The notes beneath the pieces are model-generated. The model ran no database searches. It worked only from the letters and a program-made list of their open reading frames with translations, and was not told the origin of the DNA. This document shows, piece by piece, positions 29,258 to 37,924 of a stretch of 64,000 nt of DNA. Source of the stretch: Crocinitomicaceae bacterium. Its GTDB lineage: Bacteria > Bacteroidota > Bacteroidia > Flavobacteriales_D > Crocinitomicaceae. Positions within the stretch are counted from its first letter, which is position 1. The number at the start of each line of letters is the position of its first letter. The stretch is from NCBI GenBank assembly GCA_029252405.1, contig JAQXBM010000002.1:1-64000 (forward strand), in the 5' to 3' direction. A program made the translations under genes and the position numbers.

Positions 29258-30133
29258 TTAGTGGTAGGGTTCTACATTCTTTAAAATGATGTTTTTACAC
29301 GAGTTTGTGTAATGTCCTCCGAATAAATTGGCGTGAACAAGCAAGGGGTACAATTGACACATTTCGAGACGATCACGCCAATTCTTTTCCAAGGGAAAAA
29401 GCTGATTATAGGCTTCGTAGAAAAGTTCGTCGAAACCACCGAATAACAACGTCATTGCCAAATCCATTTCCCGATGCCCGTAATACACAGCTGGATCAAT
29501 CAGGACAGGTTTGTTTCGTTCATCGGACATGCAATTGCCCGACCATAAATCGCCATGAAGAAGACTTGATGGCTGGTCACTAAAAAGTAGCTCAATTCGT
29601 TCATTCAGTGCATTCAATTGTTGGGGGTTAAATGACAGTTGTTGCTTCGCGTCCAATAACTCAAGTTGCTTTAAAATGCGCTCATGGAAGTAGAAGGACG
29701 ACCATTTTTTGTGAAATTCATTCGGCTGATTCAGACTACCAATGTAGTTGTTGTGATCCAGTCCAAAGTAATCGTGAGTATTCTGGTGCATTGACGCAAG
29801 TTGTTCGCCAAATTCTTTCCAATAGCCCGGAGTTTTCTCTCCGGAAGAGATGTATTCCAAGAGGATGAATTGACCGTCAAGGAAGGAGTCTACTGCTAGA
29901 ATAGTAGGAATTCGGAAGGCAGCATTCTTCGTCAAAAGTTCCAGTCCTTTAGCTTCTTTTTCAAAAAGTTCGGGTGAAGAACTTTGATTGATTTTTATGA
30001 GAAAAGTACCTTCACTCGTAAGAAGTTTATACACCTGATTGTTATCACCACCATGAACAGGAAGCCCTTGATCAATTGTAAAGTCGCTGCCAAAATGGTT
30101 TTTTAAAACTGACTCGATGGAATCAAAAAGCAT
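29258..30133 (-). CDS. Fructosamine kinase family protein
   Basis: A 291-residue cytoplasmic small-molecule kinase of the APH-like fold. ATP-binding residues lie in QVYKLLTSEGTFLIKIN (about 33-49); the catalytic loop is LHGDLWSGNC (about 197-206) and the metal-binding segment VLIDPAVYYGHREMDLA follows. These proteins phosphorylate ketosamines on glycated amines or proteins, aiding their removal. A TATCTTCG box lies 38 bases upstream. Confidence 0.9.
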   Translation of the reverse strand: MLFDSIESVLKNHFGSDFTIDQGLPVHGGDNNQVYKLLTSEGTFLIKINQSSSPELFEKEAKGLELLTKNAAFRIPTILAVDSFLDGQFILLEYISSGEKTPGYWKEFGEQLASMHQNTHDYFGLDHNNYIGSLNQPNEFHKKWSSFYFHERILKQLELLDAKQQLSFNPQQLNALNERIELLFSDQPSSLLHGDLWSGNCMSDERNKPVLIDPAVYYGHREMDLAMTLLFGGFDELFYEAYNQLFPLEKNWRDRLEMCQLYPLLVHANLFGGHYTNSCKNIILKNVEPYH

Positions 30134-30274: not shown

Positions 30275-32599
30275 CTATTCCATTGACAAAATCATCTTCT
30301 TCAATTCCTCCTCTTCTTCATCCTTCGGAGTGAAATTTCTCGCCATTTGAATCAATTTTTCATCCGTCAGATCTCCGTTAAAAACAGAGTCTCTGAGAGT
30401 CAAACCAAAAGCAGTAACGAGATTAACCAAATCGTTTTGAATGATTTCACTACTTTGATTCAGGCTGAATTTTCGTTCAATACTCGTCGAGTCCTCGAAA
30501 GGCTTGTAGCGTAATTTCACAAAGGCCAATTCTTCTCGGTTAAACGTTGATTTCGTTTTAGTAAAGTGGCTTTCCGTTTTAGTTTCTTTTCCTCGTTCGA
30601 TTTCATAAACTGCAATCACTGAATGGCTGTATCCCATCTCTCCGCCATCTTTCGTGTCATCGTCGAAGTCTTTGGCTGGCATCAAACGATTTTCGTAACC
30701 AATCAATCGGTAGTTTTTGACCAATGCTGGATTGAATTCAACGTTCAATTTCACATCGCGGGCTATGTTGATGAGGTTTCCTATATCTCCACAAAGTACT
30801 TGCGAAGCAGTTTTCAGATCGTTGATGTAGAAATGATTTCCATCGCCACGATCGGCAAGCGTTTCGAGAATATCGTCGCGGTAATTTCCCATTCCATACC
30901 CCAAGGCCGTTAAATAAATTCCTTTTCCGCGTTTCTGAGAAATGTAATCTTCTAACTCAGACGTAGAGTTAATTCCAACATTGAAATCTCCGTCAGTCGC
31001 CAATAGAATTCGGTTATTGAATTGAGGATCGTAATAGCGCTCCGCTAGATCGTAAGCAGTTTGAATTCCTCCAGCTCCGTTTGTCGAGCCATTCGCTACG
31101 AGGCTAGATAATGCTCTGTAAATTTTTGCTTTTTGATCACAGGTTGTTGGTTTCAAAGCGATCCCAACTTTTCCAGAGTAAGTTACAATTGAAATTCGAT
31201 CTCCCTGCTGCAAACCTTTCACGAATTCTTTAAAAGATGCGATGACCAATGGTAACTTGTTATTGCTCGACATCGATCCAGAAACATCCACCAACAGCAC
31301 AATGTTGTGGTATTTTCTAGGTTGATCTTCAGGGATATCTGCTGCTCGAACGCGAATGGTCAACAATTCATTTTGTGGATTCCATACACAGTTGTTTCGC
31401 TCTAATTCCACACCGATTAACTCATCTTTTTCGATGGCCGCAGGTTTATGTTTGAAAGAATTCAGCATTTCCTCGAGTCGCACTGCATCGCGATGGATGG
31501 TTTGACCTAGACCGAATTTCGTTTTGATGTAAGTCCAAGATGCGCGATCGACATCCAGCCCAAACGTCGAGTTCGGTGAGGTAAGCGGAGAAAGGAAATC
31601 GTTTTCATAGATTTCTGAGAAGCGATCAAAACTCAACCTGTTTTCTGTCGCTTCCATATAAACTGTTGGTGGCCGATACTGAGGTGTTGGGCTTGAGTAC
31701 GTATGAGCATAGCTGTACGTCGAGCGGTTCAGGGCTCGTGCTCTTCGCTCTCGAATAACTTGCTGGCGCGTCATGCCATTCACAAGGATAACTCCGCCCG
31801 TTGCATCGCCATAACAGGCAGGGACTCCTCCAGTAATCACTTGAACATTTTTAATGAATGATTTTGGAATTCCGTCCAACGAATTCACGCGTATCCCATC
31901 AATATAGTAGGCATTTTGACCTGCACGGGCACCACGAATATTGACACCTGAAAAATCATTAGTTGCATTTACACTCCCAACAGTTCCGGCTATTCCCAGA
32001 GCACTTCTATTAGGCATTTTACCGATATCCTCACGTGTAACTGTCGTTCCTGTAGCCGATGCGTCTTTGTTGATAAGGGGGCTGGAGTAAGCGACGATCG
32101 ATACGGATTCAATCTGTTGAACGTTGTTTGAAATCACATTATTCGCGTCAAATTTCATAGGATTCTGAGGAATGTCCTCTCGTTTGACAGCGTTAACAGG
32201 TAATACATTTGATAACCTTTCGATTATAGCGGGGTCATTGGATTGGGAAAACTTGCCCTCGCCCTTACCTTGAATAGCCAACAAACTCGAATCTACTTCG
32301 TAAGAATGATATACCAACTGATTGGGTTGAATGTACACGGCTTGTTTGTAGATGAAAAAGCTATCACGATACGAGCAGTATAAATCTACTCTTCCCGCGG
32401 GAAGTTTTCGAGAAATGACTTTTTCTAGGGTGTTTTCTTTGAATAGCAAGGTTGAATCCTGCCAGATCTGAACGGAAATACTGTCATCAGAAATGGAACT
32501 AGCTCGATCGAAAGAAACAATAACTCCTCCCGTTTGAGAAAAGGCGTTTGAAGCGAAAAACAAAGTCAAAAAGGCAAGTGCGAATTTCATAGGCGTCAT
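30275..32599 (-). CDS. TonB-plug/VWA chimeric surface protein
   Basis: A 774-residue exported protein (signal ending SNAFSQ; start at 32599 or 32590). After an N-terminal beta domain (about 22-115) comes a TonB-receptor plug-like domain (about 170-275: TVTREDIGKMPNRSA, GVNIRGARAGQNAYYIDGIRV, GGVPACYGDATGGVI). Then a YfbK-type region with RLEEMLNSF, a von Willebrand A domain (about 430-600) with a MIDAS motif DVSGSMS, and a C-terminal DUF3520-like part. No beta-barrel follows the plug, so it cannot be a working TonB transporter. VWA domains bind partners through a metal ion; the plug may serve as a docking module. Likely outer-membrane or periplasmic. Confidence 0.85.
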   Translation of the reverse strand: MTPMKFALAFLTLFFASNAFSQTGGVIVSFDRASSISDDSISVQIWQDSTLLFKENTLEKVISRKLPAGRVDLYCSYRDSFFIYKQAVYIQPNQLVYHSYEVDSSLLAIQGKGEGKFSQSNDPAIIERLSNVLPVNAVKREDIPQNPMKFDANNVISNNVQQIESVSIVAYSSPLINKDASATGTTVTREDIGKMPNRSALGIAGTVGSVNATNDFSGVNIRGARAGQNAYYIDGIRVNSLDGIPKSFIKNVQVITGGVPACYGDATGGVILVNGMTRQQVIRERRARALNRSTYSYAHTYSSPTPQYRPPTVYMEATENRLSFDRFSEIYENDFLSPLTSPNSTFGLDVDRASWTYIKTKFGLGQTIHRDAVRLEEMLNSFKHKPAAIEKDELIGVELERNNCVWNPQNELLTIRVRAADIPEDQPRKYHNIVLLVDVSGSMSSNNKLPLVIASFKEFVKGLQQGDRISIVTYSGKVGIALKPTTCDQKAKIYRALSSLVANGSTNGAGGIQTAYDLAERYYDPQFNNRILLATDGDFNVGINSTSELEDYISQKRGKGIYLTALGYGMGNYRDDILETLADRGDGNHFYINDLKTASQVLCGDIGNLINIARDVKLNVEFNPALVKNYRLIGYENRLMPAKDFDDDTKDGGEMGYSHSVIAVYEIERGKETKTESHFTKTKSTFNREELAFVKLRYKPFEDSTSIERKFSLNQSSEIIQNDLVNLVTAFGLTLRDSVFNGDLTDEKLIQMARNFTPKDEEEEELKKMILSME

Positions 32600-32746: not shown

Positions 32747-33940
32747 CTATTCACGCACAGCCTTAATCCCTGGTAATTCCTTTCCTTCCAAGTACTCCAA
32801 CATAGCACCACCACCAGTAGAAACATAGCTAACCTCGTCCGCTAAATTGAATTGATTAATCGCTGCCACTGAATCACCACCACCGATTAAAGAAAAGGCT
32901 CCATTAGATGTTGCGTCCACAATAGCATTCGCCACAGAAACTGTTCCTTTTTGGAAGCTTTCCATCTCGAAAACGCCCATAGGGCCGTTCCACAAAATCA
33001 CTTTTGAGTTGACGATTACTTCACGACAAGCGTCAATTGTATTCGGTCCTACATCTAATCCCATCCATCCATCAGGAATGGCGTCAATTTGAACTTCTTG
33101 TGTGTTTGCGTCGTTTGAGAATTCGTCTGCAATAATCGTGTCGGTTGGAATCACCAAGTTCACACCTTTCGCTTTCGCTTGCTCCATGATGGATTTCGCC
33201 ATTTCCAAGAAATCGTCTTCTACTAAAGAGTTCCCAATTTGTCCTCCACTTGCTTTTACAAAGGTGTAGGCCATTCCACCGCCGATAATCAAGTTGTCAA
33301 CGCGGTCCAGTAAACGTTCAATGATCACAATTTTGGAAGAAACCTTCGCACCACCAACAATCGCAGTCACAGGTTTTTCGGCGCTATTCAGTACTTTGTC
33401 TACACTTTCAATTTCTCCCTCGATGAGGAATCCAAACAACTTGTCATTTGGGAAGAATTTCGCCGCGACTGTTGTGCTCGCATGAGCTCGGTGTGCTGTT
33501 CCAAAGGCGTCATTCACGTAAACGTCTCCATGCTTGGATAATTTTTCAGCAAATGCTTCATCTCCCGCAGTTTCTTCTTTGTAGAAACGCACGTTATCCA
33601 AAATCATCACTTCTCCAGCCTTTAGAGCTTTGCTCATTTCGTAAGCGCCTTCGCCGATGCAATCTCCTCCAAATTTCACAGGAGTTCCAATCACTTTCGA
33701 CACGTGATCAACGATGTTTTCCATTGAAAACTTCTGTTCGTATCCATCTTTTGGTCGACCGAGGTGCGACATCAAAACTACGCTTCCGCCTTGATCAATA
33801 ATGTGTTTGATAGTTGGAGCAGCAGCACGAATACGTGTATCATCAGTTACTTCAAGTGTTTCCTTGTTTATAGGAACATTAAAATCTACACGAATTAAAG
33901 CGCGTTTACCAGCAAAATTGTACGAATGAATGGAAGCCAT
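32747..33940 (-). CDS. pgk: Phosphoglycerate kinase
   Basis: A 397-residue glycolytic enzyme transferring phosphate from 1,3-bisphosphoglycerate to ADP. The signature RVDFNVP is near the N-terminus, followed by [40 protein letters not shown] and the C-terminal GGGDSVAAI and [13 protein letters not shown] blocks. The length is that of bacterial PGK. It has its own promoter and no adjacent glycolytic gene. Confidence 0.98.
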
Positions 33941-36410: not shown

Positions 36411-36893
36411 ATGACTACAAAAGAATACAACCTGGCAGTTGACGAATATTCGGATAATATCTTCCGATTCGCGTTGAAGCAACTCAGAAATGAGATGTCT
36501 GCTAAGGATATTGTTCAGGAAACATTTACCAAGGTGTGGGCGAAGCACGAAGAAGTGCAATACGAGAAAGTAAAATCGTATCTCTTCACAACTGCTTACC
36601 ACGCAATAGTTGATTGGGTGAAGAAGGAAAAACGTTCGGGAGACATCGAAACAGCTGGGCAGGAAGCAACACATGTTGATGCTGAGGTGGATTTACAGGA
36701 AGTACTCCACGAAGCCTTGAACCGTTTACCGGAAGTGCAAAAGACTGTTGTCTTACTCCGTGATTACGAGGGATACAATTACTCGGAAATTGCAGAGATC
36801 ACCGAATTAAGTGAGTCACAAGTAAAAGTGTACATCTTCAGAGCGCGAAAAGCACTCAAGGCGTACGTAAAACGATTGGATTTAGTAATATGA
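36411..36893 (+). CDS. ECF RNA polymerase sigma factor
   Basis: A 160-residue sigma-70 family protein with region 2 (about 15-75; MSAKDIVQETFTKVWAKHEEV) and region 4 (about 103-155; LPEVQKTVVLLRDYEGYNYSEIAEI, then a recognition helix ESQVKVYIFRARKAL, residues given in parts). It lacks region 3, as ECF factors do. It overlaps by four bases a membrane protein gene that is very likely its anti-sigma partner. The promoter it recognises is unknown. Confidence 0.95.
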   Translation: MTTKEYNLAVDEYSDNIFRFALKQLRNEMSAKDIVQETFTKVWAKHEEVQYEKVKSYLFTTAYHAIVDWVKKEKRSGDIETAGQEATHVDAEVDLQEVLHEALNRLPEVQKTVVLLRDYEGYNYSEIAEITELSESQVKVYIFRARKALKAYVKRLDLVI

Positions 36894-37924
36894 AATCAGA
36901 GAGAATAAGCATATTTAATTACGAGGCATTTTACCTTGATCACCTAGAAGGAAATCTGGGCGAGGAGGATACTGCCTTGTTATTGGCTTTTCTCGAAGAG
37001 CACCCCGACCTCTTTGAAGAAGAGGGAGATTTCGTCATGCTCGATGCAACGGTTGATGCGCCAACTTTCGATGATAAAGATTCGTTGAAAATTGTGAGTG
37101 ATGAAGCAGGTATTGTGCTATCCAATGTCGAACATTTCTTAATTGCTGAATCGGAAGGACAATTACCAGTTGCGAAGCAAGAAGAATTGAATGCCTTTGT
37201 AGCTCAGCATCCTCATTTAGAGAAAGAACGCAAGTATTTAGCAGCGATGTTCTTGAAAGCAGATCAGTCGATTGTATATGCTGAGAAATCTGGATTGAAA
37301 CGAAAAGGAGCGGTTATTTTCTGGCCGTATATCGCTTTGGCAGCCGCGAGTATTTTGATTGCGTTCTTCTTTGTGATGAACAATGACCCTAAAACGGATG
37401 AGTTTGCAGAGAATCCAAATACAATTGAAAAGAACGAAGATCAAAAACAAGAACGTCCAGTAGTTGAAAAAGACAACATTCAACTAGTGAATAATGTAGT
37501 TCATGAGAACTCAACACCAGAGCAAGACACGGAGAATTCGTCTCCAAGTCCGAGAGTGAATGTGAGTCCATCTAACACCCCAAATCGTCAAGCGATTGCA
37601 TCAGTGAATTCGATCAAACATCGTCAAGCGCGCCGAGTGATCAACTCAATTGGAAATGCTGATTTACAACCTGTAGCTTCGAAAATTGATCCACCTGCAC
37701 TTACGGCGATACCAGAAAACGATTATGCTCAGGCGAGCGCAGGAGCTGAAAGCTATCAAATGAAAAATCCAATCAAACCAATTACATCTCGATTGGAAAA
37801 AACACTCAATACAGATGTCGATTTCAAAACAGGAAAGGCTGCAAACAATACTGGGGCTGGTTTCTTCCTGAAGATTGGGAAATTCGAACTCTCTCGTAAA
37901 AAAGGGAAACGTAGCAAAAAGTAG
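36890..37924 (+). CDS. Putative membrane-bound anti-sigma factor
   Basis: A 344-residue single-pass protein. The acidic N-terminal cytoplasmic part (about 1-130) contains two repeats of a LxxFLxEHPxL-type helix (LLAFLEEHPDLFEEE and LNAFVAQHPHLEKER). One membrane helix follows (about 144-162, FWPYIALAAASILIAFFFVM), then a long Asn/Gln/Pro-rich, probably disordered periplasmic tail with a basic end (SRKKGKRSKK). Position after the ECF sigma gene with a four-base overlap is the main reason for calling it the anti-sigma factor; it has no obvious zinc-binding ZAS motif. Confidence 0.7.
   Translation: MKSERISIFNYEAFYLDHLEGNLGEEDTALLLAFLEEHPDLFEEEGDFVMLDATVDAPTFDDKDSLKIVSDEAGIVLSNVEHFLIAESEGQLPVAKQEELNAFVAQHPHLEKERKYLAAMFLKADQSIVYAEKSGLKRKGAVIFWPYIALAAASILIAFFFVMNNDPKTDEFAENPNTIEKNEDQKQERPVVEKDNIQLVNNVVHENSTPEQDTENSSPSPRVNVSPSNTPNRQAIASVNSIKHRQARRVINSIGNADLQPVASKIDPPALTAIPENDYAQASAGAESYQMKNPIKPITSRLEKTLNTDVDFKTGKAANNTGAGFFLKIGKFELSRKKGKRSKK

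Follow-up and report, generated by a model that had tools for sequence, protein, structure and literature searches.

A barrel-less TonB-dependent transporter plug joined to a YfbK-type VWA protein in a Crocinitomicaceae bacterium: a possible part of an envelope-sensing system

The plug-VWA gene and its product

The 64,000-nucleotide stretch of Crocinitomicaceae DNA analyzed here (the window) contains an open reading frame for a 774-residue protein, in which a plug domain of the kind found in TonB-dependent transporters (TBDTs) precedes a VWA domain. This plug-VWA gene is flanked by pgk and a fructosamine kinase gene on the same strand, and a sigma factor gene and a putative anti-sigma factor gene lie on the other strand (Table 1).

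Table 1. Coordinates of the plug-VWA gene, the parts of its product, neighboring genes, and small plug genes at related loci
Feature	Positions	Strand	Basis or remark
Fructosamine kinase gene	29258..30133	(-)	
Plug-VWA gene, 774 aa	30275..32599	(-)	ORF; architecture conserved in 9/199 genomes of the order
YfbK_C (PF12034), residues 608–764	30308..30778	(-)	Pfam, E 1e-40, over curated cut-off
VWA (PF00092), residues 432–594	30818..31306	(-)	Pfam, over curated cut-off; structure neighbors are VWA chains, Z up to 23.8
MIDAS DVSGS, residues 438–442	31274..31288	(-)	Invariant in 9/9
vWF_A (PF12450), residues 325–413	31361..31627	(-)	Pfam, over curated cut-off
Barrel-less TBDT plug, residues 178–274	31778..32068	(-)	Pfam Plug; identity to 38 TBDT plugs
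TonB-box-like segment IESVSIVAY, residues 163–171	32087..32113	(-)	Aligned to 38 TBDTs; predicted disordered
N-terminal beta-sandwich domain, residues 23–111	32267..32533	(-)	AlphaFold2 strands 23–111, pLDDT mostly 74–92
Signal peptide, residues 1–22	32534..32599	(-)	Sec type I by inspection: AFS-Q, no lipobox Cys
pgk	32747..33940	(-)	
ECF sigma factor gene, PG0214/GFO_1088-like	36411..36893	(+)	Neighbor
Putative single-pass anti-sigma factor gene, no plug	36890..37924	(+)	Overlaps sigma gene
Small plug genes	L166:7806–8336, L248:7572–8312, L249:4703–5299, L056:1157–1477, L165:3124–4347		

Pfam assigned residues 178–270 to Plug (PF07715) with an E-value of 1.2e-10 and 42.3 bits against a cut-off of 23.9. 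No barrel family was matched in the protein at E ≤ 1, and residues 325–764 carried vWF_A, VWA, and YfbK_C instead, in the order of a YfbK-type VWA protein. Thus, the half of the protein that follows the plug is not the 22-strand barrel of a TBDT, but a VWA part by both Pfam and structure. In PDB searches, the single sequence matched the colicin I receptor plug with an E-value of 1.3e-4, and a nine-sequence profile matched the same plug at 2.5e-9 and BtuB at 7e-6. The MIDAS residues D438-x-S440-x-S442 (DVSGSMS), T506, and D536 were invariant in all nine close homologues. A reading of the sequence made without database searches (the sequence-only reading) had placed a plug at about residues 165–280 and had joined it to an intact MIDAS and a YfbK-type tail with no barrel; the Pfam and PDB profile searches and the MIDAS conservation confirmed both points.

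The sole hydrophobic stretch of the protein is N-terminal and was read as a signal peptide, of which Met4 and Gln22 were invariant in the alignment of window-type plug-VWA homologues. No anti-sigma family was matched in the protein, which begins with this signal peptide and not with the cytoplasmic anti-sigma domain and transmembrane helix of an ECF anti-sigma factor. The protein was predicted from these features to be a Sec-exported, periplasmic YfbK-type VWA protein. Its N-terminal beta-sandwich domain occupies the same position as the NTE/CarboxypepD-reg domain of TBDTs; CarboxypepD_reg gave a weak match (E 0.005) in L036 only among the homologues scanned.

An AlphaFold2 model based on the nine homologues alone had a mean pLDDT of 55.8, with the plug mostly below 45, and was rejected. 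An alignment of 105 rows, including the N-termini of 38 TBDTs and VWA cores, gave a mean pLDDT of 80.2 and a pTM of 0.66. In this model, pLDDT was below 50 at residues 129–196 and about 70–79 in the plug, the linker at residues 294–321 was disordered, and the VWA/YfbK half was confident. VWA chains were among the matches listed in a fold search of the model, and inter-alpha-inhibitor heavy chain 1 was matched with a Z-score of 23.8 and an rmsd of 4.5 over 270 residues.

Origin, distribution, and repeated capture of the plug

The window plug (residues 178–274) was 49–59% identical (median 54%) to the plugs of 38 TBDTs of about 1250 residues, and the N-terminal domain was only 11–21% identical to that of the same TBDTs. 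The positions invariant in both the nine family members and the 38 TBDTs include R222, G223, R225, D234, G235, V254, G257, P260, A261, G264, D265, G268, and G269. Within the nine plug-VWA proteins, the plug had a mean pairwise identity of 0.50 and the VWA domain one of 0.69; the unconserved linkers on either side of the plug (residues 109–158 and 275–320) had 0.11–0.12. A tree built from 71 plugs placed the nine window-type plugs with the 1250-residue TBDTs (100/100) and the SusC-type plugs of other VWA proteins with SusC transporters (100/95). These results show that the window plug is of TBDT origin and of a non-SusC type; the SusC-type assignment of the sequence-only reading was not upheld.

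One TBDT of this type, about 1250 residues long, is encoded in the genome from which the window comes. The type (L032:3876–7643) was found order-wide and was kept even in genomes of about 2 Mb; it had no relative in the PDB at E ≤ 0.01, and NCBIfam gave it no specific name. BAM subunits were rejected as the source of this conserved TBDT because BamG is described as FadL-like in PMC12611786.

The window-type plug-VWA protein was found in 9 of the 199 genomes of the order, all in the family of the window's genome, and this recurrence argues against an assembly accident. The other eight proteins were 45–49% identical to the window protein. In a comparison over the order, 185 of the 199 genomes had some match to the window protein; plug-only matches, at about 40–59% identity and mostly in frames of about 1250 residues, ranked after full-length and VWA-only rows. 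Among 395 genomes sampled across the phylum, 81 had a match at E ≤ 1e-60, and only the window's own match was full length.

Other YfbK-type VWA proteins of Bacteroidota carried plugs by Pfam, and these were SusC-type, for example in L055 with EVVVVGYG. One truncated row labeled with the SusC-type set, L145, was placed with the window type in the 71-plug tree. Forcing all VWA plugs into one clade cost 205 log-likelihood units (AU p 3.4e-8) in a test of 64 rows with 20 VWA plugs, from which seven long or truncated rows were omitted and whose hypothesis was set after the first tree. On a VWA tree with 115 of 117 rows (the 117 rows represent 116 distinct genes, L095 being a duplicate of L166), plug presence required six changes, at least three of them forced by starred branches. 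The window family formed one starred clade of nine on this tree, and its long branch met another long branch, leaving its position unsure; the case for separate captures was therefore made from the plug tree. On this phylogenetic evidence, YfbK-type VWA proteins were shown to have captured plugs at least twice, separately, from different TBDT groups. The SusC part captured in G215 was 73% identical over 207 residues to a SusC protein of the same genome, and this capture looks recent.

Plugs were present in 18 of 60 Bacteroidota rows and in none of 21 other rows in a set of named genomes (best 80 matches). Most YfbK-VWA rows (93 of 117) lacked a full plug, which corresponds in a weak sense to the homologues without plug similarity that the sequence-only reading had named as evidence against its view; the trees and the truncated plugs argue that the similarity is not spurious, and they indicate that the plug was added to the VWA family and has been eroded in places. 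In L142, L145, L127, L169, L244, and L269, a TonB-box-like segment and the start of a plug lead directly into the VWA part, and the plug of L069 is truncated too. When 161 N-termini that lack a full plug were searched permissively, 24 showed plug-like or TonB-box stretches, against 0 in shuffled sequences. Small genes for a plug alone or for a CarboxypepD domain plus a plug (106–407 residues) adjoin or lie near plug-VWA genes in several genomes (Table 1).

Neighboring regulators, TonB-related features, and anchoring

Plug-VWA genes of relatives often adjoin a gene for an ECF anti-sigma factor or are fused to it. Near the 117 VWA rows, an ECF sigma gene was located within 300 bp in 32 and within 1.5 kb in 7 more; 49 had none, and 29 had too little flanking sequence. 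In the named genomes, a set that partly overlaps these rows, a sigma gene was within 1.5 kb in 27 of the 52 Bacteroidota rows with enough flank, as scored with a profile built from Bacteroidota loci, for which other phyla are not a fair control. Each of five genomes had 18–33 Sigma70_r4_2 matches, from which we calculate that proximity in a few percent of cases would be expected by chance.

The gene order of Flavobacterium-type loci is sigma factor, anti-sigma factor with a C-terminal half-plug, and plug-VWA protein. The half-plug matched the SusC-signature family with an E-value of 7e-7, under the cut-off of that family. In G215, G280, G398, G531, and two Chitinophagaceae records, an anti-sigma-like N-terminus, a plug, and a VWA part form a single protein, and the fusion genes abut or overlap a sigma gene. 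The 895-residue protein of G215, whose gene overlaps the ECF sigma gene, consists of an anti-sigma part (NF052375, E 6e-6, below cut-off), a SusC N-terminus (TIGR04056, E 1.6e-64), and a VWA part. The cytoplasmic anti-sigma domain and transmembrane helix of an ECF anti-sigma factor are present in relatives such as L166 and L169 (zf-HC2), and an anti-sigma-like N-terminus joined to a VWA part without a plug also occurs, as in L043. Among the 46 SusC-signature matches of G418, the barrel-less frames picked were a plug-VWA protein (734 residues), the neighboring anti-sigma factor (328 residues), and a 548-residue frame that by inspection reads as an M56-type peptidase; among the 26 of G350, frames of 727 and 316 residues were picked.

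In the window, the nearest sigma gene lies 3812 bp from the plug-VWA gene on the opposite strand, which places the latter outside any sigma operon. In G159 the same sigma gene abuts that of the plug-VWA protein, at 52 bp, and in G153 the two are 4.5 kb apart; in both genomes, a homologue of the window's putative anti-sigma gene adjoins the sigma gene. Among the nine family members, a sigma gene was found within 1.5 kb in G159 only; five had none, and three had too little flank. The window sigma factor was downgraded as a candidate partner of the plug-VWA protein: pgk and xseA share the same neighborhood, and since they travel with the sigma gene, its proximity may be plain synteny.

In G151, one of the nine family members, the plug-VWA gene is directly preceded on the same strand by genes for a BlaI repressor and for an M56 peptidase that carries a TonB C-terminal domain (PF03544, E 3e-16); this arrangement (L040:2957–4554) was found in this member only. 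TonB C-terminal domains are the type of domain that binds TonB boxes. No motor-protein family was matched among ten ORFs scanned around the window gene, and scans for promoters and terminators around it gave no excess over shuffled sequences. Elsewhere, a YfbK-type VWA protein with a type IX secretion sorting tail (L049:4588–6594) is flanked by several small proteins that resemble the TonB C-terminal domain.

The segment I163–Y171 aligned with L-E-E-V-E-V-V-x-Y of the 38 TBDTs. It forms a conserved island between the unconserved linker and the plug; A170, Y171, P174, and L175 were kept in eight of the nine family members, and the segment was degenerate in the remaining one (L037). The core LxEVVV was rejected as proof of a TonB box because it is generic, following an N-terminal domain in 11 of 16 DUF5686 control proteins. 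The extended SusC-type motif E-V-V-V-x-G-Y was present in 10 of the 93 VWA proteins that lack a full plug, versus 0.14 expected by shuffling, and in 0 of the 16 DUF5686 proteins. BT1763, a SusC protein, has a Ton box given as VDEVVV/DEVVVTG, which is required for growth on the substrate of BT1763 and is disordered in the substrate-bound structure (PMC7782687).

Bare VWA homologues frequently showed a lipobox pattern (37 of 56), and plug-bearing homologues resemble either plain Sec substrates or fusions to an anti-sigma part. The pattern was present in 7 of 42 plug rows, of which six were judged false on inspection of the N-terminus, with the Cys within the hydrophobic stretch and an A-Q type site after it (L051 being the least clear); L250 was the seventh. 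Many homologues with a long N-terminus showed neither a lipobox nor a full plug (68 of 97 signal-peptide-like).

Possible roles of the barrel-less plug

Plugs are taken to serve one purpose, the gating of a barrel, and Bacteroidota depend on dozens of TBDTs. The window protein resembles SusC/RagA and other TBDTs in its TonB-box-like segment and plug, but has a VWA/YfbK half in place of the barrel. Its entire C-terminal half resembles the YfbK-type VWA protein of E. coli (PF12450-VWA-PF12034), from which it differs by the N-terminal plug module. Cell-surface signaling of the FecA-FecR-FecI type, as outlined in PMC9249621, likewise employs a transporter-derived periplasmic module together with the ECF sigma and anti-sigma factors also seen in the relatives; here, however, the module is a plug and not an STN domain, the barrel is absent, and in relatives the module lies within the anti-sigma protein itself. 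The Dma anti-sigma factors of Bacteroides are also linked to outer-membrane parts and confined to Bacteroidota, but, by the account in PMC13088901, they have a C-terminal barrel and a long tether, in contrast to the barrel-less plug and VWA domain found here. The vWA force transducers of PMC12204202 share a periplasmic YfbK-like vWA fold and the TonB theme; as described there, they differ in having a transmembrane helix with an SHLS motif and adjacent tolQ/R-like genes, whereas the window protein begins with a signal peptide, and no tolQ/R-like genes were seen among the neighbors scanned. In the open-license literature, we encountered no account of VWA or anti-sigma proteins that bear a plug; the vWA force transducers and the Dma anti-sigma factors come closest in theme. 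PMC4571129 lists a YfbK protein from Flavobacterium psychrophilum as a 'probable outer membrane protein precursor'.

We tentatively propose, at somewhat less than even confidence, that the window protein forms the periplasmic arm of an envelope switch, with its plug reading the state of a transporter or of TonB. The N-terminus would correspond to the periplasm-facing part of a TBDT, namely the TonB-box-like segment and the plug, with the barrel left behind. As a recognition module, the captured plug might compete with real transporters for the handlers of plugs, either TonB or the barrel itself, and the VWA/MIDAS half would report the state of the transporter or of TonB to a regulator bound to the membrane. 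The family as a whole would supply the periplasmic arms of envelope-sensing switches, often with ECF sigma/anti-sigma pairs. The fusion of relatives to anti-sigma factors and their ECF sigma neighbors point to signaling rather than docking, and the M56-TonB gene of G151, the conservation of the plug, the sigma proximity in 27 of 52 rows, and the AU rejection of one clade also speak for the proposal. Against it stand the location of the window gene outside any sigma operon, the single family member of nine with an adjoining sigma gene, the single occurrence of the M56-TonB arrangement, and the weakness of the LxEVVV core as evidence for a TonB box. The regulatory role of the window copy, the partner of its plug, and the signal path are inferred, and the plug-VWA protein may belong to an envelope-sensing system not described before.

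The retention of TBDT-invariant plug residues in all nine homologues would also be expected if the plug inserted into or capped TBDT barrels and so parked the VWA protein at outer-membrane transporters, and the N-terminal module might have replaced a lipid anchor, given the lipobox patterns of bare homologues and the plain Sec or anti-sigma N-termini of plug-bearing ones. We consider such docking rather unlikely: no plug-less partner barrel was found, the TBDT of the matching type still has its plug, many homologues with long N-termini have neither lipobox nor full plug, and an isolated FepA plug behaved as unfolded according to the review PMC11658791. The plug could instead merely present the TonB-box-like segment to TonB, which would pull on the VWA protein or be titrated by it. 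The segment, conserved and predicted to be disordered like the Ton box of BT1763 (PMC7782687), is consistent with this, as are the SusC-type boxes kept in homologues without a full plug, the M56-TonB gene upstream in G151, and the proposal in PMC12204202 that vWA proteins of YfbK-like fold act as TonB/TolA-like force transducers. Such coupling is nevertheless unlikely in view of the generic LxEVVV core, the loss of the segment in one of nine family members, and the transmembrane helix and motor genes that the transducers of PMC12204202 possess and that were not seen here.

Quality control of outer-membrane proteins, in which the plug would mimic an unassembled TBDT and sense periplasmic chaperones or proteases while the VWA half transmits, fits the ECF sigma linkage of the family as an envelope stress response, and G196 has a tail-specific-protease gene one gene away from that for the plug-VWA protein. 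We regard it as improbable, as no chaperone or BAM gene recurred beside the family among the few neighbors scanned at the listed loci, and an Omp85 gene was found once only (L039). The truncated plugs of several homologues (L142, L145, and L069) would suit an inert spacer left by domain shuffling, yet in the window family the conservation of the plug is four times that of the two linkers and the TBDT-invariant residues are kept, which makes this explanation very improbable.

Returning to the envelope-switch proposal, its extension beyond the window family is more doubtful: YfbK-type VWA proteins and ECF anti-sigma factors of Bacteroidota, through repeated capture of the TonB-box/plug half of TBDTs from their own genomes for use as sensor modules, might form a TonB-coupled signaling class in which the regulator carries a decoy plug, rather than the receptor carrying a signaling domain. 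The acquisition of plugs by the VWA family from two TBDT groups and the 73% case in G215 argue that a barrel-less plug is useful in itself. The three-gene sigma/anti-sigma/plug-VWA loci of Flavobacterium offer a genetic handle on how Bacteroidota might monitor their TBDTs.

The window's own genome encodes a second YfbK-type VWA protein on contig C62 (L031:4841–7006), in which the VWA part is joined to an anti-sigma-like N-terminus that has a transmembrane helix; its gene begins 11 bp after an ECF sigma gene. It also encodes a second barrel-less plug on contig C22 (L033:3759–4493), a 244-residue protein that consists of a CarboxypepD-reg domain and a plug and nothing else, next to a CarboxypepD-reg protein of 148 residues.
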